Shown here: positions 12,080 through 60,252 of the stretch, in pieces
Layout of the letters: every line of letters begins with the position of its first letter
How positions within the stretch are numbered: the stretch's first letter is position 1
Virus record (IMG/VR): IMGVR_UViG_3300046834_000025
Span: 1-64,000 of that record
Direction: 5' to 3' (one strand)
Source: a virus
DNA: 64,000 nt
Position numbers and translations under genes: made by a program
Notes under the pieces: generated by a model
What the model was told of the DNA's origin: nothing
The model's database searches: none
The model's input: only the letters and a program-made list of their open reading frames with translations

Positions 12080-12633
12080 CAGAGGAGTTCCTGGTCTGGC
12101 GTGATCTCCAGCATGGTGACTTCCTCATCACTCTCGCCCGCCGCACGGAGAGCCGCGAGGAACGCCGTCGTCGCAGTACGCTTCTGGTCGTCGGTCGCCT
12201 CGATCGCGGACAGGGCTTGCACGAGCGCAACGGCCATGACACGGACTTTGGCTTGTTCTACCTCAACCAGCTTGCCACTGATCATGTCGGCGAAATCGAG
12301 TCCGAGAAGCCGTGCGCGGCGTTCCAGGACCTTGAGAGCGATCTCGACTGCACGCGGGTCGCCGGACAGTGCTCGTCCCCAGATGCCGTCCTGCAGGTCG
12401 TCGAGCCGCATCTCCTCGAGCCTGATCGCTTCTGCCCGCTTGAAACCGACGTTCTCAGGACGGCTGATCGCGCGGTGGAAGATCCTGCTGGCGTTCGAGA
12501 AGCCGTGTTCCTTCTCGATCTTGGTGAAGCTCTTGCCACGGATGCGCTCTTGCATCACAATCGCTTCGGCTTCGAGCATCGCCTTCTCTTGCTCAGCCGT
12601 CAGCGTTCTACCGAGGTTCTTCCTGGTCGCCAC
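12079..12633 (-). CDS. HTH protein, probable terminase small subunit
   Basis: 184 residues. Helix-turn-helix region GKSFTKIEKEHGFSNASRIF, followed by LDDLQDGIWGRALSGDPRAVEIALKVLERRARLLGLD, a pattern seen in phage small-terminase-like HTH proteins that act on packaging sites. GTG start with GAGAGGA 6 nt upstream. It lies about 5 kb upstream of the large terminase, more distant than usual, so the assignment is inference; a DNA-binding regulator is the alternative. Confidence 0.55.
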   Translation of the reverse strand: MATRKNLGRTLTAEQEKAMLEAEAIVMQERIRGKSFTKIEKEHGFSNASRIFHRAISRPENVGFKRAEAIRLEEMRLDDLQDGIWGRALSGDPRAVEIALKVLERRARLLGLDFADMISGKLVEVEQAKVRVMAVALVQALSAIEATDDQKRTATTAFLAALRAAGESDEEVTMLEITPDQELL

Positions 12634-12919
12634 CGTTGTCCTCTCCCAACAGACCGTCGATGAACGAGAGCAGGATGTCGGCAAGCTCAGGACAGTTGCC
12701 GAACGACGCACCAGGAATCCACGGGTGTCGCTTACCGTCGATGCCGATGTAGTCGAGGTTCGCTCGCGCGTGCCGAAGAGCCCATTCGAGTTTCGAGTGG
12801 TGGCCGATCGGAAAGAAGTCGGTCTCCAGGTCGAACGGTCCAGGTGCGACCGGCGTGCGGGTGATCAACAGACCGGGCTTGCCTTCGACGGTTGAGACAG
12901 ACCAGGAGTTCGCGCTCAT
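12608..12919 (-). CDS. Hypothetical protein, 103 residues
   Basis: Mostly beta with a central helix (SKLEWALRHARANLDYIGID) and an acidic C-terminus (GEDNGGDQEEPR). The start is preceded by the exact GAGAGGAAACCG cassette found before many genes here. The 3' end overlaps the HTH gene by 26 bp. No family recognised. Confidence 0.7.
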   Translation of the reverse strand: MSANSWSVSTVEGKPGLLITRTPVAPGPFDLETDFFPIGHHSKLEWALRHARANLDYIGIDGKRHPWIPGASFGNCPELADILLSFIDGLLGEDNGGDQEEPR

Positions 12920-12939
12920 CGGTTTCCTCTCAAGAGATG

Positions 12940-32797: not shown

Positions 32798-33306
32798 TGA
32801 ACTCCGGCGTGCCGACCCTGGCCAACCTGCTCAGCAAGTTCGAGCAGGTCGGCTCGGGGTGCTGGGAGTGGGTCAACCCGACTCACAAGCAGGGCTACGG
32901 TACGATCAGGTGGGACGGGCGAACGGTCTTCGCTCACCGGCTGATGGTGGCTGCAGTCTACGGCGTAACGCTCGAACAGATCCGAGAAGATGTAGTCCGG
33001 CACTCATGTGACAACACGTCGTGTGTCAACCCGCTTCATCTGCTCGTAGGAACACAACAGCAGAACTGTTTCGATCGGCTAATCCGTGGCCGACGCGTCG
33101 AACGACTAAACAACACAAGGCGTCTCTCCGTCGACATCGTTACGGAGATGCGACGTCGAGCACGGCAAGGCGAACGAGGTGTTGCTTTGGCACACGAGTT
33201 CGGAATTTCGAAGAGCAGCACCTATCAAGCAATCCGAGGCTACACATGGTCATGGATTGAAGAACCACCCGTCACAACACTGAGAGGAAACCGACATGAA
33301 CAGTAA
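32797..33306 (+). CDS. HNH endonuclease with C-terminal HTH
   Basis: 169 residues. HNH_3-type His-Me finger: GCWEWVNPTHKQGYGTIRWD, AHRLMVAAVYG, VRHSCDNTS-CVNPLHLLVGT. C-terminal HTH: RRARQGERGVALAHEFGISK followed by SSTYQAIRGYTW. TGATG overlap with DUF932. It opens M-N-S (ATG AAC TCC) and the gene it overlaps downstream also opens M-N-S (ATG AAC AGT), a possible recoded-end insertion. Confidence 0.83.
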   Translation: MNSGVPTLANLLSKFEQVGSGCWEWVNPTHKQGYGTIRWDGRTVFAHRLMVAAVYGVTLEQIREDVVRHSCDNTSCVNPLHLLVGTQQQNCFDRLIRGRRVERLNNTRRLSVDIVTEMRRRARQGERGVALAHEFGISKSSTYQAIRGYTWSWIEEPPVTTLRGNRHEQ

Positions 33307-33640
33307 GAACACCGGCGCAGTCAAGATGGTCACGGACCTGTTGAAGCACGAGTGGGCATCAAGGGAGGTTGGTAAAAGCGTTCTCATCAATCCCGTCATC
33401 TTCGCAGCAAAGAACAATCTCTCAGCAGAGGTAGTCACGGGTGCCTTGCAGGATATCGCTCGCCCCGGTGCACCTCACACCTGGATCACCCGTGTTGCAA
33501 AGGGTGTCTATGAGATCGTAAGCGAGCCCATGAGTGCGCGTGAAGCGAGCGGTAATACCTCGCATCACTCGCGTATCAGTGCGCTCGAAGCTGAAGTCGC
33601 AGATCTCCGTGACATCCTTAAGCGTGCTGGACTCATCTGA
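33296..33640 (+). CDS. Winged-helix-like protein with coiled coil
   Basis: 114 residues. The N-terminal ~75 residues resemble a small winged-helix (FAAKNNLSAEVVTGALQDIA, then ITRVAKGVYEIV), ending with a coiled coil (ISALEAEVADLRDILKRAGL). Ribosome cassette GAGAGGAAACCG upstream. Possible DNA-binding regulator (inference). Confidence 0.65.
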   Translation: MNSKNTGAVKMVTDLLKHEWASREVGKSVLINPVIFAAKNNLSAEVVTGALQDIARPGAPHTWITRVAKGVYEIVSEPMSAREASGNTSHHSRISALEAEVADLRDILKRAGLI

Positions 33641-33702: not shown

Positions 33703-33728
33703 ACCACCGCCAAGAAGGGAAACCGACC

Positions 33729-34250
33729 ATGAGCAACGCCGACCGGACTCGCGAAGCGAAGCCAGCCTGCCCGTTCGACGGCGCGACCGTCCGTGACAGC
33801 AACGGACAGTGCCACTGCAGGAACGTCCTGTACCGTGAGTGGCAGAAGGACCTCTCCATCAAGGACGACATGACCCTGATCTTCAACAAGGCTCTCCTGG
33901 ACGGCGACTCGATCGAGACCGCTCTCGCTGCCGTGCGCGCCGAATTCCCTCACCTGGTTCGCACCCGGAAGATCAACGCGACGCCCACGCCCGCTGCCCC
34001 GCCTGCCGTGGTCGAGACGCCTGCCGTGGTCGAGGACGAGAAGAAGCCGACGACCGCCGAGATCATCAAGGACGAGGTGGCCGTGGAGAAGGCGGAGAAG
34101 CCTCGCTACGTCCTCGCGTTCGTGCCGTCCGGCCAGACCACGGAGTACGCTCGCAAGGACGCCGCCATCAAGGCTGGTGTGCGCTCTGGTGGCGAGTGGA
34201 CCGTCAGCTACAAGGGCAAGAAGGTCGCTCAGTCCGATGAACTGCTCTGA
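33729..34250 (+). CDS. Hypothetical protein with Pro/Ala/Val linker
   Basis: 173 residues: N-terminal Cys motif (CPFDGATVRDSNGQCHCRN), helical middle (LIFNKALLDGDSIETALAAV), a low-complexity linker (TPTPAAPPAVVETPAVVEDE) and a small C-terminal beta domain. GGGAAACCGACC before the ATG. No family recognised. Confidence 0.68.
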   Translation: MSNADRTREAKPACPFDGATVRDSNGQCHCRNVLYREWQKDLSIKDDMTLIFNKALLDGDSIETALAAVRAEFPHLVRTRKINATPTPAAPPAVVETPAVVEDEKKPTTAEIIKDEVAVEKAEKPRYVLAFVPSGQTTEYARKDAAIKAGVRSGGEWTVSYKGKKVAQSDELL

Positions 34251-37671: not shown

Positions 37672-38117
37672 TCCCTGGTCTGGGTGAGCCAGAATGCGAG
37701 CTCACGTACAAGGAGATTGACGCGCGGTTCGTCAGCATCCCTGAGCTCGCTCAGCTAACCGGCTTCTCTGCCAGGCAGATTGACTACCTCATCCGGTCGG
37801 ATCGGCTCTACCCAACGCACTACACGTGGAGCAATCTGCACCTCAAGGCACCCGTGTGGGTTTGGTTGCCAGGCACCGAGATCAGCAGCGGGTACCGCCG
37901 CATCTGGGAGCGAGGCAGCGACCGGCTGAGGTACGTGCTCCTGCTTTCCGCCTGGGTGAAGATGGGCATGAGCACTGCGTCAGCCGTTGCTCTGGCCAAG
38001 CACCATGTCTTTGGAACGGAACTGCCAGTATTCCTTCTCCCGCTGGCGGATGTGGAACTGAGAGAGGAAACCGATGAACGACGCAATGAAGCGAGTCAAG
38101 AAGGCTCTCAAGGGTGA
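37668..38117 (+). CDS. MerR-like HTH regulator
   Basis: 149 residues. FVSIPELAQLTGFSARQIDY-LIRSDRLYPTH is a winged-helix MerR-type DNA-binding region, followed by helices (YVLLLSAWVKMGMSTASAVA) that resemble a dimerisation part. Probably a transcription regulator or an excisionase-type protein. GTG start; the 3' end overlaps the next gene by 44 bp. Confidence 0.65.
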   Translation: MIPGLGEPECELTYKEIDARFVSIPELAQLTGFSARQIDYLIRSDRLYPTHYTWSNLHLKAPVWVWLPGTEISSGYRRIWERGSDRLRYVLLLSAWVKMGMSTASAVALAKHHVFGTELPVFLLPLADVELREETDERRNEASQEGSQG

Positions 38118-38349
38118 TCTGGCCGACTTCGAGGTTGGCACGATCATCACCTGGACACGTGTTGTGGAGAAAGAGCCGTTCCCCTACGCGGCGATCAGAA
38201 CGCCGCGAGCCTGGCTCACGACGGCTCCCAACGATCTCATCGTGAAGCGGGTCTACTCCTTCGACAATCTGCTCGAGGTGCTGTCCCGTGAAGGTATCGC
38301 TGACGTGCGGGTCATCGGTCGAGACGATGGCACGAAGGTCGAGCCGTGA
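38074..38349 (+). CDS. Hypothetical protein, 91 residues
   Basis: Basic N-terminal helix, then an alpha/beta domain (GTIITWTRVVEKEPFPYAAI ... LLEVLSREGIADVRVI). Overlaps both neighbours. No family recognised. Confidence 0.67.
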   Translation: MNDAMKRVKKALKGDLADFEVGTIITWTRVVEKEPFPYAAIRTPRAWLTTAPNDLIVKRVYSFDNLLEVLSREGIADVRVIGRDDGTKVEP

Positions 38350-39508: not shown

Positions 39509-39548
39509 GCCTACCTGGTTCAGTTCCAACAAGAGAAAGAGGAAACCG

Positions 39549-40310
39549 ATGGATCACATCTCTGTCAAGGGAAGCGAGCTCCGTATCGACCCCGATGCGC
39601 AGCGTCTCTTCGAGCAGCACCGCGCCAACAAGATCGCAGAGGAGTGGGACGAGCGTTCTGTCGGCGCGATCACCGTTTCCCTCCGGGACGATGGCGGCAT
39701 GTACATCCTCGATGGGATGCACCGCGTTGCTGCCGGTCTCCTGGTCGACCCCGACATGATGTTCTTCTGCATCATCCACAAGAACATGTCGGCAGAGGAC
39801 GAAGCGACCCTGTTCCTGCGCTCAAACAACGAGCGCAAGAGCGTCAACAGGTTCGACACCTACCGGATGTACCTCCGGGCGAACGACGAAGTCGCACTCC
39901 GCATTCAGGCGGAGGTGATGGCTGCCGGACTGTCGGTCGGACGCAGGGCATCTACCAACCAGGTATCTGCCGTCGTTACCCTCCGGCGCTGGGCAGAGAA
40001 GGACGTACCTCCGTACGGTCTGATCACCCGCGCACTCAACATCAACGAGGTTGCATGGGGGCGCACCGCTGAGGCATGGGACAACACCGTCATCGCCGCA
40101 GTCTGCGAAGTCTTGCACAAGAACCCGCACATCCAGATCAACCGGCTGGTGCATACCCTTCAGAAGTTCGTCGTGGCTCAGTGGGCTGCAAAGGGTGTGG
40201 AGCGCATCGGCGGTAGCGGTGGTTCCGCGTCACGTCCGAGCAGCACTGCAGCCTGCATCTGCGACGAGTACAACAAGAGGCTGAGCTTGGCCAAGCGCAT
40301 CGGTCTCTGA
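39549..40310 (+). CDS. ParB/sulfiredoxin-like nuclease-fold protein
   Basis: 253 residues. YILDGMHRVAAGLLV is the ParB-type 'DG.HR..A' motif, followed by ATLFLRSNNERKSVNRFDTY and a helical C-terminal part with HTH-like segments. Phage proteins of this type (DUF6551-like) are found in replication modules. GAGGAAACCG cassette before the ATG. Could act as a DNA-binding or NTP-dependent nuclease; unproven. Confidence 0.72.
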   Translation: MDHISVKGSELRIDPDAQRLFEQHRANKIAEEWDERSVGAITVSLRDDGGMYILDGMHRVAAGLLVDPDMMFFCIIHKNMSAEDEATLFLRSNNERKSVNRFDTYRMYLRANDEVALRIQAEVMAAGLSVGRRASTNQVSAVVTLRRWAEKDVPPYGLITRALNINEVAWGRTAEAWDNTVIAAVCEVLHKNPHIQINRLVHTLQKFVVAQWAAKGVERIGGSGGSASRPSSTAACICDEYNKRLSLAKRIGL

Positions 40311-40620: not shown

Positions 40621-40671
40621 GATTCTTGTCAGCAAGCCTGACCCCCAAGATTCATCGTTGAGAGGAAACCG

Positions 40672-41058
40672 ATGATCATCACCATCGACACGAGCCAGCC
40701 TCTGTCTCAGATCGACTTGGACGCGCTCATGGCGCTCACGGGTGTCGTCGCCCCTTCGCCGAACGGCCAGGAACCGCCGTCTGCGCCGGTCTCCGTCGTG
40801 CCCACCAAGAAGGCTGCGCCTGCCAAGAAGGCCGCTGCACCGAAGGCTGAGCCGAAGCCGGAGACGCCCGCAGAACTCGCTGCGGACGAGGACGAGGCTG
40901 CCAAGCTGCAGGAGACCGCTCACGCCAAGGCGAGTGGCCTTCTCGCCGATGGTCAGCGTGACCGCGTGATCGCGGCTCTCAAGGAGATCGGCGCTGCACG
41001 TGTCGCCGAAGTCCCGGCTGACAAGCTGCAGGAGTTCATCGACGCTCTGGGTGAGTGA
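40672..41058 (+). CDS. Hypothetical protein with Ala/Lys/Pro linker
   Basis: 128 residues: short N-terminal part (QIDLDALMALTGV), a KKAAPAKKAAAPKAEPKPE linker, and a C-terminal helical module (VIAALKEIGAARVAEVPADK). That last module resembles tails found on several phage recombination and single-strand-binding proteins. GAGAGGAAACCG exactly before the ATG. Confidence 0.66.
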   Translation: MIITIDTSQPLSQIDLDALMALTGVVAPSPNGQEPPSAPVSVVPTKKAAPAKKAAAPKAEPKPETPAELAADEDEAAKLQETAHAKASGLLADGQRDRVIAALKEIGAARVAEVPADKLQEFIDALGE

Positions 41059-42525: not shown

Positions 42526-43119
42526 ATGGCAGAGAACGACACCACCGAGGCACGCCGTGTCATCACGGGCCGTGTCCGGCTGAGCTTCCCGTACCTGTTC
42601 AAGCCGCGACCCCCGATGGCTGGCCAGGAGGGAGAGCCGAAGTACAGCGTGATGCTGTTGATCCCCAAGAGCGACACCGTCACGATGGAAAAGCTCCGCA
42701 AGGCCGAGAAGCTTGCCCTCGAACAGGGCAAGGCCGGAACGTTCGGCTCGAACTTCAAGATGTCCTCTCTTGCACCGTCCATCATCAAGGACGCCGACGA
42801 GGACGGCACTGCGGAGGACTACCCGGAGCGTGAGGGCATGTACTACATGACCGTCAACGCTCAGGAAGCCTTCAAGCCGCAGGTGGTCGACAAGAACCTC
42901 AACCCGATCATCGACCAGAGCGAGGTCTACTCCGGCGTCTGGGCCAGGGTCTCCGTCTCCGCGTTCCCGTACAAGTACGGGGACATGAAGCGGGGCATCT
43001 CCTTCGGCCTCAACAACGTCCAGGTTCTCGGCTACGGTGAGAGCCTGCGCGGTGGCAAGAGCGCCGACCAGGACTTCGACGCGGTCGAGATCGCGGAAGA
43101 GGACGCGAGTCTGCTCTGA
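42526..43119 (+). CDS. DUF2815 protein, probable single-stranded DNA-binding protein
   Basis: 197 residues: VRLSFPYLFKPRPPMAGQEG, KYSVMLLIPKSD, WARVSVSAFPYKYGDMKRGI, SFGLNNVQVLGYGE, all typical of DUF2815, an OB-fold ssDNA-binding family. Acidic C-terminal tail (EIAEEDASLL) as in SSBs. ATG chosen with AGGATGAGAGAG upstream; an earlier ATG overlaps DUF2800. Confidence 0.88.
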   Translation: MAENDTTEARRVITGRVRLSFPYLFKPRPPMAGQEGEPKYSVMLLIPKSDTVTMEKLRKAEKLALEQGKAGTFGSNFKMSSLAPSIIKDADEDGTAEDYPEREGMYYMTVNAQEAFKPQVVDKNLNPIIDQSEVYSGVWARVSVSAFPYKYGDMKRGISFGLNNVQVLGYGESLRGGKSADQDFDAVEIAEEDASLL

Positions 43120-43146
43120 TTCACCCCCACGTCGGGCTCGACGTGG

Positions 43147-43233
43147 TAAGATAGGTGTGGTGCCGCGCGGCGGTTGGGTTATGTCGGTTTCCTCTCCCTC
43201 GCGCGGCACTACTCCCTCCCTGAGAGGAAACCG
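43147..43233 (+). promoter_or_regulatory. Promoter plus RBS-sequestering leader switch
   Basis: Extended -10 TG-G-TAAGAT begins the unit, just after a CCACGTCG-GGCT-CGACGTGG hairpin. In the leader, CGGTTTCCTCTC (43185-43196) is the exact 12-nt reverse complement of the ribosome site GAGAGGAAACCG (43222-43233). A competing perfect 9-bp stem, TGCCGCGCG (43161-43169) with CGCGCGGCA (43200-43208), encloses the anti-site in its loop. The two pairings interfere, as in a translational switch. Confidence 0.65.
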
Positions 43234-43461
43234 ATGACGCAGTACGTGAAGGTCGAAATCGACGAGGGTCGTGCCTACACCTACGGGTGGGACGGCGAAG
43301 AGCCTCTCAAGCCTGGCGACCAGGTGGTGCTTCCTAGCAACATGGTCCGCAATCGGACCTTCTCCGGACGAGTTCTGCGAATTCTGGCAGAGTCGGATTT
43401 CAAGGGGCCGATCAAGAACATCCTCTCGAAGGTCAATGACGACTTGGAAAGCCTTCTGTAG
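43234..43461 (+). CDS. Hypothetical protein, 75 residues
   Basis: Beta-rich (YVKVEIDEGRAYTYGWDGEE, then LKPGDQVVLPSNM) with a C-terminal helix. The ribosome site is the one that can be masked by the leader. No family recognised; possibly an SH3-like fold. Confidence 0.68.
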   Translation: MTQYVKVEIDEGRAYTYGWDGEEPLKPGDQVVLPSNMVRNRTFSGRVLRILAESDFKGPIKNILSKVNDDLESLL

Positions 43462-43542: not shown

Positions 43543-44823
43543 GTGTTCAAGAAGAGCCTGCTCTGTCTGTGTTCGAGCGTTGCGCTCATTCTCGGCATGG
43601 GCCTCATCGCCTCTCCGGCTGAGGCTGCTCCGGGTGACGAGTTCATCGTCAACGGCGACTTCAGCGACTACGACCCGGCGACTGGCGCGATCACGGACGG
43701 CGTGACGACGACCGACTTCTCGCTCACCACCTCTCTCGCTGAGGCATCTTCGCCTGGCAACGGGGACATGTACGACCCCGGCGTGTACGCCGTCTCGACC
43801 AACGCGGGCGCGCTCCACAACCAGTGGATCGAGCAGGCGGGCGACAACCCCAAGATGGTCCTCAACGGCTTCACCGAAGGCGTGCAGACCGTCTGGCAGC
43901 AGACCGCTGACGGCGTCACCTGCGACACGCCCGGATCGACCATCGGGTTCGAGTTCACCGCTGATGTCGCCAACGTCCTTCCGCTCGACCAGTACAGCGA
44001 CGGCGGAGCGAACATTTCGGTCTACATCAACGACCAGCTCATCGGCTCCGCCGACCTCACATCCAACGACGGTACGCCCGTGTCGATCTCGAGCGCGATG
44101 GTTCCGGCTGCTGATGCGTTCGTCATCGAGGTTCGGAACAGCGCGACCGTCTATGTCGGCAACGACTTCTCGCTCGACAACCTGTCGCTGGTCCAGACCG
44201 GCGATTGCACCGCTCCGGTGGCCGTCCTGTTCGATGTCGCGCCGACCGACCCGACGTGTGAAGCCGATGGCTCGCTCGACACCTCGCTGTTCCCGATCGT
44301 CCGCGAGGGCTACACCCTCACCGTCGACCGGGCCTTCGACGGTCCCGGCGACTACGTGATCACTGCCACCGCTGCTGACGGCTTCTTCTTCTCCGGCGAC
44401 GGCGACCCGTTCGTCCGCTCCGTGACTGTCACCGTGGGCGAACGTCTGCCCGCTGCGGAGTGCCGTGTTGGTGGGCTCACGATCGGCTACTACAAGAACC
44501 ACGCCGTCTCCGAGGCTACCTGGGATGCGGCACGCGCCGGTCTGAACACCCTGTTCGGGGCGTACCCGAACTGGAACAACGCGCTCGCGGTGCTGAACGC
44601 CAAGCCGACCAATGACGGCTCGGTGCAGTTGCTCCGTCAGGCAATCGCGTTCGCTCTGAACGTCGAGACCATCGACGGCTTCGCTGAGAACATCATGCCG
44701 AACGGCATGACCGCCGAGGCGTACCTCGACTACCTGAACGCCACGCCGACAGCGTGGGACACCAGGTCGGAACGGCTCGCGATCGCTGCGATCCTCGACG
44801 CTGCCAACCAGCACGTCGTCTGA
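43543..44823 (+). CDS. Secreted multidomain protein
   Basis: 426 residues with a Sec signal peptide (VFKKSLLCLCSSVALILGMG ... SPAEA|APGDE). Residues ~30-220 form a jelly-roll-like domain (NGDFSDYDPATGAI ... YINDQLIGSADL). Next a ~90-residue domain opening VAPTDPTC and closing AAEC, homologous to one in the 34.7-kb protein. The C-terminal part begins TIGYYKNHAVSEATWDAA, recalling 'FWKNH' extracellular modules. GTG start with GGAAGGA. Has its own regulated promoter. Probably acts outside the cell on host or competing phage (inference). Confidence 0.8.
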   Translation: MFKKSLLCLCSSVALILGMGLIASPAEAAPGDEFIVNGDFSDYDPATGAITDGVTTTDFSLTTSLAEASSPGNGDMYDPGVYAVSTNAGALHNQWIEQAGDNPKMVLNGFTEGVQTVWQQTADGVTCDTPGSTIGFEFTADVANVLPLDQYSDGGANISVYINDQLIGSADLTSNDGTPVSISSAMVPAADAFVIEVRNSATVYVGNDFSLDNLSLVQTGDCTAPVAVLFDVAPTDPTCEADGSLDTSLFPIVREGYTLTVDRAFDGPGDYVITATAADGFFFSGDGDPFVRSVTVTVGERLPAAECRVGGLTIGYYKNHAVSEATWDAARAGLNTLFGAYPNWNNALAVLNAKPTNDGSVQLLRQAIAFALNVETIDGFAENIMPNGMTAEAYLDYLNATPTAWDTRSERLAIAAILDAANQHVV

Positions 44824-44864: not shown

Positions 44865-44885
44865 TACACCATTGAGAGGAAACCG

Positions 44886-45071
44886 ATGAGCTACCTCGAT
44901 AGACTCCTGACAGAGCCTGCCGTCAAGTGTCAGTGCCCGTCCCGCGACTCTGGTGCTGCAGCCTTCCACGGCGGCAAGCCGGACGGCTGCCCACGGGATG
45001 CCCTGGTGCCACGCGGAGTGGTCACCAGTCCAGCACTCTGTGCCGCCTGCCTGCACGGCTGCATGGACTGA
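44886..45071 (+). CDS. Cys-rich protein, 61 residues
   Basis: Cys at CQCPSRDSG, C later, and CAACLHGC near the end; one or two zinc sites. Exact GAGAGGAAACCG before the ATG. Ends 3 nt before the HNH gene. Confidence 0.65.
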   Translation: MSYLDRLLTEPAVKCQCPSRDSGAAAFHGGKPDGCPRDALVPRGVVTSPALCAACLHGCMD

Positions 45072-47407: not shown

Positions 47408-47479
47408 ATGAAGCTCATCATGTTCGCGTTCCTGGTCGGCGCGATTCTTTCTGTCAGTATCACACCGAGAGGAAACTGA
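47408..47479 (+). CDS. 23-residue membrane micropeptide
   Basis: MKLIMFAFLVGAILSVSITP and a short end. Sits between polymerase and the next gene; its last codons are the ribosome site (GAGAGGAAACTG) of that gene. Translation is plausible but unproven. Confidence 0.42.
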   Translation: MKLIMFAFLVGAILSVSITPRGN

Positions 47480-47646
47480 TGAGAGTTGCAGCGCGGGTCA
47501 CCATCGTCATGCCGGACGGCACTACCTACGACTACGCTCCTGGTGAGGCACAGGTCCAACTAGTTGACACCGTCGTTGAGGACAAGAACACCAAGAAGAA
47601 GTCGCCGGTCAGGTACTTCAACATCGTTGCGCCGGTTGTGCCATGA
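47479..47646 (+). CDS. Hypothetical protein, 55 residues
   Basis: Beta-rich (RVTIVMPDGTTYDYAPGEAQ) with a Lys-rich loop (DKNTKKKSPVRYFNIV). GAGAGGAAACTG before the ATG. No family recognised. Confidence 0.64.
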   Translation: MRVAARVTIVMPDGTTYDYAPGEAQVQLVDTVVEDKNTKKKSPVRYFNIVAPVVP

Positions 47647-50547: not shown

Positions 50548-50661
50548 GACGAACAGCAGGGTCCGTGGTGGCCCGGAGGCAACGAAGACTACGAGCACTA
50601 GAGGTACACGTAGCTCGCTTCCCCTGTTACTAGTCTCCCTTTCAAAGACGAGAGGAAACCG

Positions 50662-50964
50662 ATGTCAACTGCCTCAATCTCAGGCACCATCGCCGGTTCC
50701 CGTCCTCTGTCACTAGGTTTCAACGTCGCCACTCCTCCACTTCTCATGGGTCGCAGCGTACTTCCGTGCGCCGGTCGTGCGAGCTTGTTCTTCCCCGCCA
50801 CCTACCGAAACTGGGCACGAGTCCGAGAGGCTTGTGCCCTCTGTGACACTTGTCCTGTAGTTCGCGAATGTCTGGCATGGGCCGTCGCCAGACCTGACCT
50901 CGACGGTATCTGGGGCGGGACCACACCGCCTCAACGTCGCCGAATACGAACAGGGAAAATCTGA
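50662..50964 (+). CDS. Second WhiB-like regulator
   Basis: 100 residues. Cys at PCAG, then CALCDTCPVVREC, and the GIWGGTTPPQRRRIR motif. The spacing fits WhiB, but the N-terminal ~30 residues differ from the 38.7-kb protein. GAGAGGAAACCG before the ATG; its stop overlaps the glycosyltransferase start. Confidence 0.85.
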   Translation: MSTASISGTIAGSRPLSLGFNVATPPLLMGRSVLPCAGRASLFFPATYRNWARVREACALCDTCPVVRECLAWAVARPDLDGIWGGTTPPQRRRIRTGKI

Positions 50965-56961: not shown

Positions 56962-59900
56962 TCACCTCAGAAGGTAGGACTGTTGCGGATGGAAGTGGAA
57001 TGTCGTTTCGTCAGAAGCAAAGCCGACCTGTTGGACGATCTGCCCGACTGCATTGGGGTTCTTCGTACCGATCTGGCCGGGTTGTGTCTGGAGGAATTGC
57101 AGACCGGGCTGCAGTCCGACCAGGGCTGGAACGTAGCCAAGAGTGAAGACTGGGACGGCATCTCCTGGCTCGGCATCCTCCAAGACGAAGCCGTGGGCCT
57201 CATGCGGTTCGATGGTTCCGGCATGATAGGGTGAGAGGACCGAACTTGCTTCCACCATCAGCGCATCCCAGTACACGAGCTCTGTGGGGATGTTGGATCC
57301 ATTGAAGATTCGAATCAGCGCACTTGTCGTGTCTCCCGGCAGAGTTACAGTTACGGAGACTCTATAGGTGCCTACAGCATTGGCTGCAGCGACCCCCGGT
57401 ACAGTGTACTGCACACCGCCGTTGTTTGATGGAGACGTGATGTATACCCAGATGTTTCGTGCTGCCGCACTGAGAGACCCAGTCTGGACGTTCGCCACTC
57501 TGATAGTGCCAGAGATAGTATACGTTCTGCCTGGAACCAGGAAGGAGGGCATGCCAGCAGAGACACCGATGTAGGCACTGCTGTTGACAGTCGCGCCATT
57601 CGGCGTGATCAGCAATGAGGCGACTCCATCAGCCGCAAAGCTAGTCGACCTGGCTATGGTTGCGTTGCTAGCGATGTATCCACTGGCGTCTGTTTCGATC
57701 GATGGGTTCGGAAGCAGGTTCATGGCACCCGCCTGCGCTGGTCGAACGAAGAACACTCCGTTGTTGTCCCATGTGTTCACAAGCATACCATACCGAACGG
57801 CGTCACTGACCCGCATCGAGTTCGTCAGGAGCTTGTACGGCGGCAGGCTGTTGTATGCGATGCGATCTGGGTCCAGAATGCCGGTCGTCAGGTCGCTTGC
57901 GTCAGAGTCATACTGCGTGGAGCCCGTGAAGTCTAGTGGGAGCCAAGCACCGTCGTAGAGCTCGTAGACAGCGGTGATCTTCCCGCCGACCAAATGGGAT
58001 GTCGAGGCGTGCGGTGCGCCGTCCCACACGGCATCGTAGGAGTCGCCATCGAAGTACCGACCAGTGGCCTCTTCCTGCTCGATCAGGGCAGCGTTGATGC
58101 GCCAGACGGCGCTTGCATTCGGGTTGACAACCTGGATACCACCGAGATATGCTACAATGCCGCCACTGGGAACCGGCGCTGCGACTTTCAGTTCCACCCA
58201 TTCATCTGTCAGCAGAGTGACTGGTGGGCTGTTGAAGTGCTCTACGAGGCCTGCAGCGGCATCGTAGTAGCGAAGGCTGACATAGGACCCCACGCCAGAG
58301 CCGGACTCGAGACGGGCAAAGACGGTGATCGCCCACGACTGTCCCTCGCTCACCGGGAAGCCAGGAATGCCGCCGTCCCACGAAATCGAATGCAACTCAG
58401 CGGCAGCCGTGTTCAGCGCCCGCGCGTCATGGGTGCCCGTGCCAGGAATCGGCACGGAGACATCAGTGAGTTCTCGTGTGAAGGTACCTGTGCCGGTCGA
58501 TGTCCAGCCTGCCAGGTCGAGTTCGAACGACGGGTTGGAGCAGTGGTTCTGCCTCGCACGGGTACGAGTGTACCACATCGAGCCTGGCTCGCGACCCTTG
58601 ATGAGCGTGTTGGCTCCGACACCATCAACAGCGTGGGCCGGGTCGGCAGCCTCAGCGATGTGATACGAAACTGTCCACGGCGCAACCTCACTGAATGACG
58701 AGACCGTCCAGGTGCCGTCGTAGGGTGCCCCTACGCGGGTAACGACGATCAGGCCACCGATCGGCATTGTCATGCCGCCCACGTCGTCCAGGGTCAGCCT
58801 GGCGACACCGCCTGTGGATGTGCCCTCGATGTACGTGTCCAGGCCGGGAGCTACCTCGAGCAGGGCTGCATCCACCTGCCAGACATCTGCGTTGGCTACA
58901 CTCGGAGAGGAGACACCTGGTGCCACCGTCACGGCAGTGGCCGGGACTACTGCCGTGACGTATGGTCGCACCCAGGTACCATCAGCGGGTAGCTGAACCG
59001 GCGCACCGGAGATACTAACGCCGCCAACGATTGCGCCGACTGAGTCGTAGAACCACACCGTCGCAGTGTAGTCGGCTCCACCGATACCAGACATCAGTCT
59101 AGCGTAGGCAGAGAACGTGATTGTCTGGCCGACTGTAACTGGGATGCGATTTGCAGTTGCAAGAGTAAGATAGTGCGTGTTGGCAGTTCCGTCGTTAGTC
59201 AGTTGTGCTACGGCAGTACCAGACTGCATGCGCGCCGAAGGCGTTCGGACCACGGGTGGTATCACCCTGGTCAAGGCTGCACGCACGCCCGACCAGCCCG
59301 CTGTGTCGATCTCGAAAGACGGATTGGGGAACAGGTTGGACCTAGAGCCTAGAATCTCTGCCTGCACGATCCGCCACAAGCCATCCGGCAGAAGGTTGCC
59401 ACCATCGGAGCTCGCGTAGTAGAGAACGTCCTCTGCCGTAGGCTCGTAGTCAGAGATCGAGATTCGACCATCAGCCGTGTTAGCGAGGTTGTGTGCGTCA
59501 ATCGCCGTCACACCAGAGATCGCGGCCTTAATCGCAATCTCGTTCAGGGTCGAGTCACCGACCACGAGATCGCCTGCGTTCTCAATGATCTCATCAACCT
59601 TTGGGTCTGAGGCATCGACCCAGATCATGTTGTCGGCGTCCCAGACCCACGGTTTCATGTTGTCGTTCGTGTCATACCAAAGATCGTTGTCTGGCATATC
59701 CGGTGTGCCGTCCGGCCACGGCGGCTCGTCCTGGCGATAGATGTCATTGCCACCATCACCGCCAGATGGTGTGGGTGCGGGTGGCAAGGAGTCAGGCGGG
59801 ATGTACTCACCAGAGATAACCGGCTGCGCACCAGGGAGATCGATCACACGCTGATAGTCATCGCTGATCAGAATGGTGACTGGCTGCTCATACGGGCCTT

Positions 59901-60252
59901 CAGGCATGACAGCGAGATCGTGGATCGTAAGCGGAACCTCGATCGGTTCCTCTGCATCGATGATCGTGACCTCTGCGACCCATCGCTTTCCGGGTGCGCC
60001 ACCGATGTCGGGAGAGACGTTGGTGCTCTCCTCCCAGGTCTCGATGAGCGGTGACTCGATGGTGATGGTGACGGCTTCGTCGTCGTTCTCTGTGACGATG
60101 AATGGACCTTCACTGCCAACCCAGACACGCTCACCAGCAGAGATTTCTGCGAAGTCTAGCTCGAGGATCGTTGAACCAGAGGGCATGTCTACTGCCAGTG
60201 TGGGACCGATGTACTCCCACCTGACCTCGTTGAGAAGCCCTTCGATCGCCAC
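56962..60252 (-). CDS. Minor tail protein with three carbohydrate-binding-like modules
   Basis: 1096 residues. Three jelly-roll-type modules each open with an N-P-S-x-E-x-D motif (LFPNPSFEIDTAGW, NHCSNPSFELDLAGW, LLPNPSIETDASGY), as in carbohydrate-binding modules. The N-terminal part looks like a tail-attachment domain (STILELDFAEISAGERVWVG). Likely binds cell-wall sugar of the host. One-base overlap with the next gene. Confidence 0.85.
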   Translation of the reverse strand: MAIEGLLNEVRWEYIGPTLAVDMPSGSTILELDFAEISAGERVWVGSEGPFIVTENDDEAVTITIESPLIETWEESTNVSPDIGGAPGKRWVAEVTIIDAEEPIEVPLTIHDLAVMPEGPYEQPVTILISDDYQRVIDLPGAQPVISGEYIPPDSLPPAPTPSGGDGGNDIYRQDEPPWPDGTPDMPDNDLWYDTNDNMKPWVWDADNMIWVDASDPKVDEIIENAGDLVVGDSTLNEIAIKAAISGVTAIDAHNLANTADGRISISDYEPTAEDVLYYASSDGGNLLPDGLWRIVQAEILGSRSNLFPNPSFEIDTAGWSGVRAALTRVIPPVVRTPSARMQSGTAVAQLTNDGTANTHYLTLATANRIPVTVGQTITFSAYARLMSGIGGADYTATVWFYDSVGAIVGGVSISGAPVQLPADGTWVRPYVTAVVPATAVTVAPGVSSPSVANADVWQVDAALLEVAPGLDTYIEGTSTGGVARLTLDDVGGMTMPIGGLIVVTRVGAPYDGTWTVSSFSEVAPWTVSYHIAEAADPAHAVDGVGANTLIKGREPGSMWYTRTRARQNHCSNPSFELDLAGWTSTGTGTFTRELTDVSVPIPGTGTHDARALNTAAAELHSISWDGGIPGFPVSEGQSWAITVFARLESGSGVGSYVSLRYYDAAAGLVEHFNSPPVTLLTDEWVELKVAAPVPSGGIVAYLGGIQVVNPNASAVWRINAALIEQEEATGRYFDGDSYDAVWDGAPHASTSHLVGGKITAVYELYDGAWLPLDFTGSTQYDSDASDLTTGILDPDRIAYNSLPPYKLLTNSMRVSDAVRYGMLVNTWDNNGVFFVRPAQAGAMNLLPNPSIETDASGYIASNATIARSTSFAADGVASLLITPNGATVNSSAYIGVSAGMPSFLVPGRTYTISGTIRVANVQTGSLSAAARNIWVYITSPSNNGGVQYTVPGVAAANAVGTYRVSVTVTLPGDTTSALIRIFNGSNIPTELVYWDALMVEASSVLSPYHAGTIEPHEAHGFVLEDAEPGDAVPVFTLGYVPALVGLQPGLQFLQTQPGQIGTKNPNAVGQIVQQVGFASDETTFHFHPQQSYLLR

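Follow-up and report, generated by a model that had tools for sequence, protein, structure and literature searches.

A hairpin 3′ of the SSB gene whose loop tracks the start-associated sequence of each phage points to a candidate antisense RNA

Start-associated sequences (SAS), together with the extended form ESAS, are known from cluster K mycobacteriophages and cluster EF Microbacterium phages, where their role is unknown (PMC3203893, PMC7302621). ESAS are 17-bp imperfect inverted repeats that precede about half of the SAS sites (PMC3203893). Although SAS repeats were described as early as 2011, they have no known reader, and Pope et al. did not settle whether their binding partner is an RNA or a protein (PMC3203893). 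Phage antisense RNAs are exemplified by c4 of P1 and P7, in which complementary stretches, probably in loops, block translation around a ribosome-binding site (review PMC12197685). In Actinobacteria, the hairpin loop of the C-rich-loop sRNAs B11/6C pairs with a guanosine-rich 5′ UTR and represses (PMC10470900).

The window analyzed here is a stretch of 64,000 nucleotides (positions 1 to 64,000) from the 77,833-bp virus record IMGVR_UViG_3300046834_000025. It carries the sequence GAGAGGAAACCG repeated before about a dozen ORFs, with copies lying 0–3 nt from the start codons. These repeats are of the SAS kind: as in clusters K and EF, a ribosome-site sequence recurs at many genes and is conserved beyond the part that pairs with 16S rRNA. 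The motif of the window and its relatives, GA(G/A)AGGAA(A)CC plus an extension, nevertheless differs from the cluster K/EF consensus, GGGATAGGAGCCC or GGGAAAGGACCCC, making it analogous to the known SAS rather than a member by sequence. An earlier note on this DNA had remarked that many genes share one ribosome site, and a search bore this out with 21 matches at up to 2 mismatches against 7.0 expected. Eight copies are exact; seven of these stand directly 5′ of ORF starts, and the remaining one is an inverted copy in a leader. The Shine–Dalgarno part of the SAS (GAAAGGA) can pair with the actinobacterial 16S tail; the ACC(GA) extension is not known to do so.

On the plus strand, sites remote from the leader lie at 33282–33293 (114-aa ORF 33296–33640), 33714–33725 (2 mismatches; ORF 33729–34250), 38062–38073 (ORF 38074–38349), 39537–39548 (1 mismatch; ORF 39549–40310, ParB-like by eye), 40660–40671 (ORF 40672–41058), 44874–44885 (ORF 44886–45071), 47467–47478 (1 mismatch; ORF 47479–47646) and 50650–50661 (ORF 50662–50964). 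On the minus strand, one lies at 12920–12931 (ORF 12608–12919). By eye the ORF at 50662–50964 resembles a WhiB-type regulator, which would place a transcription factor among the predicted targets.

The inverted copy lies in a 114-nt leader that separates a gene for a Gp2.5/Enc34-like ssDNA-binding protein (SSB; 42538–43119, plus strand, start approximate; Pfam PF10991, E 9e-46; PHROG 112, E 1.5e-49) from a 75-aa orphan ORF (43234–43461) without a family match. In this leader the earlier note had described a 12-nt anti-site and a perfect 9-bp stem. Both are present: CGGTTTCCTCTC (43185–43196) is the exact complement of the local site GAGAGGAAACCG (43222–43233), with 25 nt between them, and TGCCGCGCG/CGCGCGGCA pair at 43161–43169/43200–43208. 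Indeed, the observation is confirmed in a stronger form than first stated. The anti-SAS segment TCGGTTTCCTCTC (43184–43196) matches 43222–43234 exactly over 13 nt, taking in the ribosome site and the A of AUG, and two G-U pairs lengthen the match to 15 bp, reaching the G of AUG. Such a 12-mer came up in just 2 of 20,000 dinucleotide-shuffled leaders and is thus not explained by leader composition. In the minimum-free-energy fold the stem extends to 13 bp (43158–43170/43199–43211; −42.2 kcal/mol, z −2.4 versus shuffles), forming a GC-rich hairpin (43158–43211) that holds the anti-SAS segment in a 28-nt loop (43171–43198). The longest match of this loop is with a gene 10 kb away: over 16 nt, 43181–43196 is exactly complementary to the start of the gene at 33296 together with its ribosome site, exceeding the local match. 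Predicted duplexes of the loop with ten SAS start regions range from −26 to −32 kcal/mol. Of eight other starts, one, a SAS-like variant, gives −28.8 kcal/mol and the remaining seven give −14 to −24 kcal/mol.

Just 5′ of the stem stands an extended −10-like promoter motif, TGG-TAAGAT (43144–43152), and the stem begins about where transcription directed by it would begin. Of the 17 phages with this element, 13 have a TANNNT in the 20 nt that precede the stem, against a background of 3.7%, so the hairpin is probably 5′-terminal. The motif is missing near the stem in L015, L017, L211 and L251. A clear T-run follows the hairpin only in Montesquieu and LuckyBarnes, and none follows it in the window or most others. 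Abutting the −10-like motif is an 8-bp dyad, CCACGTCG-ggct-CGACGTGG (43127–43146), which may serve as an operator or as the terminator of the SSB gene; folds of L206, L210, L257 and L258 contain similar small dyads upstream of the stem. Rfam gave a best match of E 3.8 for the window leader, far below the gathering score, and none for eight relatives. Further downstream, between the SSB and polymerase genes, the window encodes a 426-aa protein (43543–44820) that begins like a signal peptide and matches nothing in Pfam or PHROG.

Close relatives of the window were absent from the collections searched: single-protein scans gave no matches or spurious ones, a candidate relative (L001) proved to be a chance match, and the window's own exact DNA pair pattern did not occur in the viral contigs searched. 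Distant relatives were reached through DNA polymerase and SSB alignments. A scan of genome contigs yielded polymerase loci that belonged nearly all to Firmicutes and gut bacteria and served as controls. At least 16 other phages share the replication genes of the window and carry the hairpin. The same element lies just 3′ of the SSB gene, its conserved upstream neighbor, in 17 high-GC phage records: the window, Montesquieu (Glutamicibacter), LuckyBarnes (Brevibacterium) and 14 IMG/VR contigs (L014, L015, L017, L204, L205, L206, L209, L210, L211, L213, L228, L251, L257 and L258). These phages are partly related, with SSB identities of about 40–90%, and a final scan aimed at finding members independent of these yielded none.

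The SAS itself differs between phages (CCGAAAGGAACCACC in Montesquieu, GAAAGGAACCGAA in LuckyBarnes), and the loop differs with it. Both of these named phages also carry numerous nearly identical SAS copies a few nt from start codons. In all 17 records the loop core GGTTCC or GGTTTCC complements the SAS core GGAACC or GGAAACC, and the window, which has one additional base in its site (GGAAACC), has it in its loop as well (GGTTTCC). Loop–site pairs include GGTGGTTCC with GGAACCACC in Montesquieu, TTCGGTTCC with GGAACCGAA in LuckyBarnes, CTGGTTCC with GGAACCAG in L204/L205 and ACGGTTCC with GGAACCGT in L209. In the L015 and L017 records, forward site copies are nearly all 5′ of ORF starts, and the sole exact antisense copy falls within this loop. 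Of the 17 predicted folds, 10 leave GGUUCC entirely single-stranded. The hairpins of L204 and L205 differ by three compensatory pairs with 16/16 pairs kept, a comparison of two sequences only in which 46 of 500 shuffles scored as high. RNAalifold found no consensus for the MAFFT-aligned hairpins, because their stems vary in length and register. By eye, a tRNA-like sequence occupies the hairpin position directly 3′ of the SSB gene in L289.

Among 24 post-SSB hairpins at high-GC loci, 17 have a loop core of this type, versus 3 of 541 other hairpins in the same sequences. The corresponding Fisher value of 3e-24 is uncorrected for relatedness and overstates independence, because the element was recognized post hoc and membership among the 24 partly related hairpins was decided once they had been inspected. 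The core is missing from the other 7 of the 24, as it is from three further high-GC loci found later. A cleaner permutation test that conditions on the core and scores whether the flanks match the SAS of the same phage gave a mean longest exact complement of 7.95 nt between a loop and its own SAS sites, compared with 6.96 nt when permuted (p 1e-5; 0 of 100,000 permutations equaled the observed match), and a reduced set of nine gave p 2e-4. With the adjacent gene's site excluded the means were 7.86 and 6.93 nt (p 3e-5), although for L206 and L209 the start picked automatically as the adjacent one was incorrect; their adjacent sites, identified by eye, match over 7 and 8 nt. Loops thus complement the SAS of their own phage better than those of other phages, with the exception of L205, L210, L211, L257 and L258, where several other phages have loops that fit the SAS set more closely than the resident loop.

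From the hairpin, its post-SSB position, the upstream −10-like motif and the loop–SAS co-variation we infer transcription of an RNA, its pairing in trans in the cell, and repression rather than activation at a particular time. Specifically, we consider it probable, judging from these sequence features, that a dedicated post-SSB promoter yields an RNA with a 5′ hairpin whose loop pairs with SAS messages and blocks translation initiation. The promoter just 3′ of the SSB gene would start a transcript, either a free small RNA or a 5′ UTR, headed by a stable GC-rich hairpin. Its loop would display the exact complement of the phage's own SAS, namely the Shine–Dalgarno GGA and the ACCGA-type extension, and would act in trans by pairing with this site on many messages of the replication region; in the window it would pair in cis with the next gene as well. 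Such pairing would prevent ribosome entry, which makes repression the likeliest effect, and the SAS gene set would be turned down once the SSB/polymerase region is transcribed. A point against trans pairing is that 13–16 nt of duplex within a closed 28-nt loop would be topologically constrained. As a broader proposition, that some phages mark a large gene set with a private ribosome-site motif and keep one cognate antisense hairpin, forming a co-evolving translational regulon, the case seems to us evenly balanced.

The earlier note had read the leader mainly as a two-state cis switch and mentioned antisense action on other messages in passing. Our results reverse this emphasis: the predicted trans action is strongly supported by the co-variation across phages, and a two-state cis switch is probably not the main point. 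That the leader governs just the next gene, through a switch or pseudoknot formed by the anti-site and the ribosome site, is unlikely, even though the window's own local match, with its 13 exact nucleotides and two G-U pairs covering the AUG, is what such a device would show. Complementarity of loop and SAS is kept in the 17 records, but the adjacent site has the exact core in only 5 (window, LuckyBarnes, L204, L206 and L209); it reads GGAGCC in another 5, where G-U pairing is feasible, and has other sequence in 7, leaving 12 of 17 adjacent sites without an exact complement of the loop core. In six members (Montesquieu, L205, L210, L211, L257 and L258) a remote SAS matches the loop better than the local site, and the best-matching sites of L015 and L017 are kilobases to tens of kilobases distant. 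The tally of adjacent cores and these distant sites favor action in trans, and control of the next gene alone is also at odds with the co-variation that survives exclusion of the local site and with the 16-nt match 10 kb away in the window. Folding argues in the same direction. The hairpin forms in the predicted fold, and the remark in the earlier note that it does not readily coexist with the anti-site pairing holds energetically but not as strict exclusion: a nested fold with the anti-site pairing forced reaches −29.5 versus −41.7 kcal/mol, about 12 kcal/mol costlier, while the two pairings together make an H-type pseudoknot and are not strictly exclusive. Since the cis match is perfect in the window, autoregulation of the 75-aa gene is possible there and would need such a pseudoknot or melting of the hairpin.

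GC-rich hairpins 3′ of genes are often terminators, and the T-runs of two members would suit a reading at the DNA level, in which a DNA-binding protein would recognize the SAS and its inverted copy, and the SSB transcript would simply end at the hairpin as at any ordinary terminator. The ESAS inverted repeats linked to cluster K SAS were likewise judged likelier to be protein-binding sites (PMC3203893). We find this explanation quite unlikely, because all 17 copies are antisense and in a hairpin loop, which is unexpected for a DNA operator, because the SAS keep ribosome-site distance from starts, and because most members have no T-run and instead carry a −10-like motif just 5′ of the stem. A regulatory direction opposite to the one we propose, with the hairpin itself sequestered by abundant SAS messages or imitating the 16S rRNA tail, draws on the symmetry of sequence pairing and on the Shine–Dalgarno part of the SAS, which pairs with the 16S tail too. 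It is very unlikely given that loops co-vary with the SAS extension, which has no 16S complement, and that a single hairpin per genome facing many SAS fits a regulator and its targets better. That the loop motif is a functionless relic of chance and shared ancestry is scarcely credible, for although the members are partly related, their stem and loop sequences differ while the complement tracks each SAS, and both the enrichment and the permutation tests speak against it. Two other candidates were rejected: GGTTC is also a tRNA T-arm word, but ARAGORN finds no tRNA in the window, and a minus-strand gene using the inverted site is ruled out because no start codon follows that site.

The preferred reading, an antisense loop acting on many SAS messages, resembles c4 in being a predicted phage antisense RNA that pairs around a ribosome-binding site, and differs in that c4 targets one gene (ant) whereas the predicted target here is a repeated site in many genes. 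With B11/6C it shares a small hairpin loop facing the 5′ UTR sequence of messages; those RNAs are cellular and have C-rich loops, unlike the phage element, which has no Rfam match. An antisense hairpin loop is absent from the descriptions of cluster K and EF SAS (PMC3203893, PMC7302621). In the open-licence literature searched, where a report may have escaped us, no paper proposes an antisense RNA for SAS, nor did we find a genome-wide ribosome-site motif paired with a co-varying antisense loop. An RNA loop that tracks the SAS of each phage is a concrete and testable candidate for the SAS reader and accounts for conservation beyond the part that pairs with 16S rRNA. If the model is true, a single RNA would give a virus a compact means of readjusting many of its genes, and actinobacterial genetics might gain an orthogonal ribosome-site/antisense pair.

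The logic of a motif plus its reader may underlie SAS repeats elsewhere. Pope et al. reported one reverse SAS, unlinked to a gene start, in each of four K1 genomes (PMC3203893), and in Anaya (K1) we find this copy in the predicted loop of a 6-bp GC stem within a non-coding gap. When nine cluster K phages are aligned, four (Anaya, Apocalypse, Peanam and Amelie) keep the segment exactly, and in the other five it is degenerate or absent; we treat the hairpin as a lead rather than a result. In AnnaSerena (EF), the 36.7 kb examined contain no antisense SAS copy. In LuckyBarnes (L013, 20000–50774) a motif, GAGTTATAGTTATTACATCA, is repeated by eye upstream of several SAS genes and is ESAS-like. Finally, a conserved, mostly non-coding segment near the right end of cluster K genomes (L011 29690–30070; Anaya 59689–60069), matched by 177 records, combines the lone reverse SAS with several hairpins and a promoter-like TTTTAGACT, and looks like an undescribed structured RNA.
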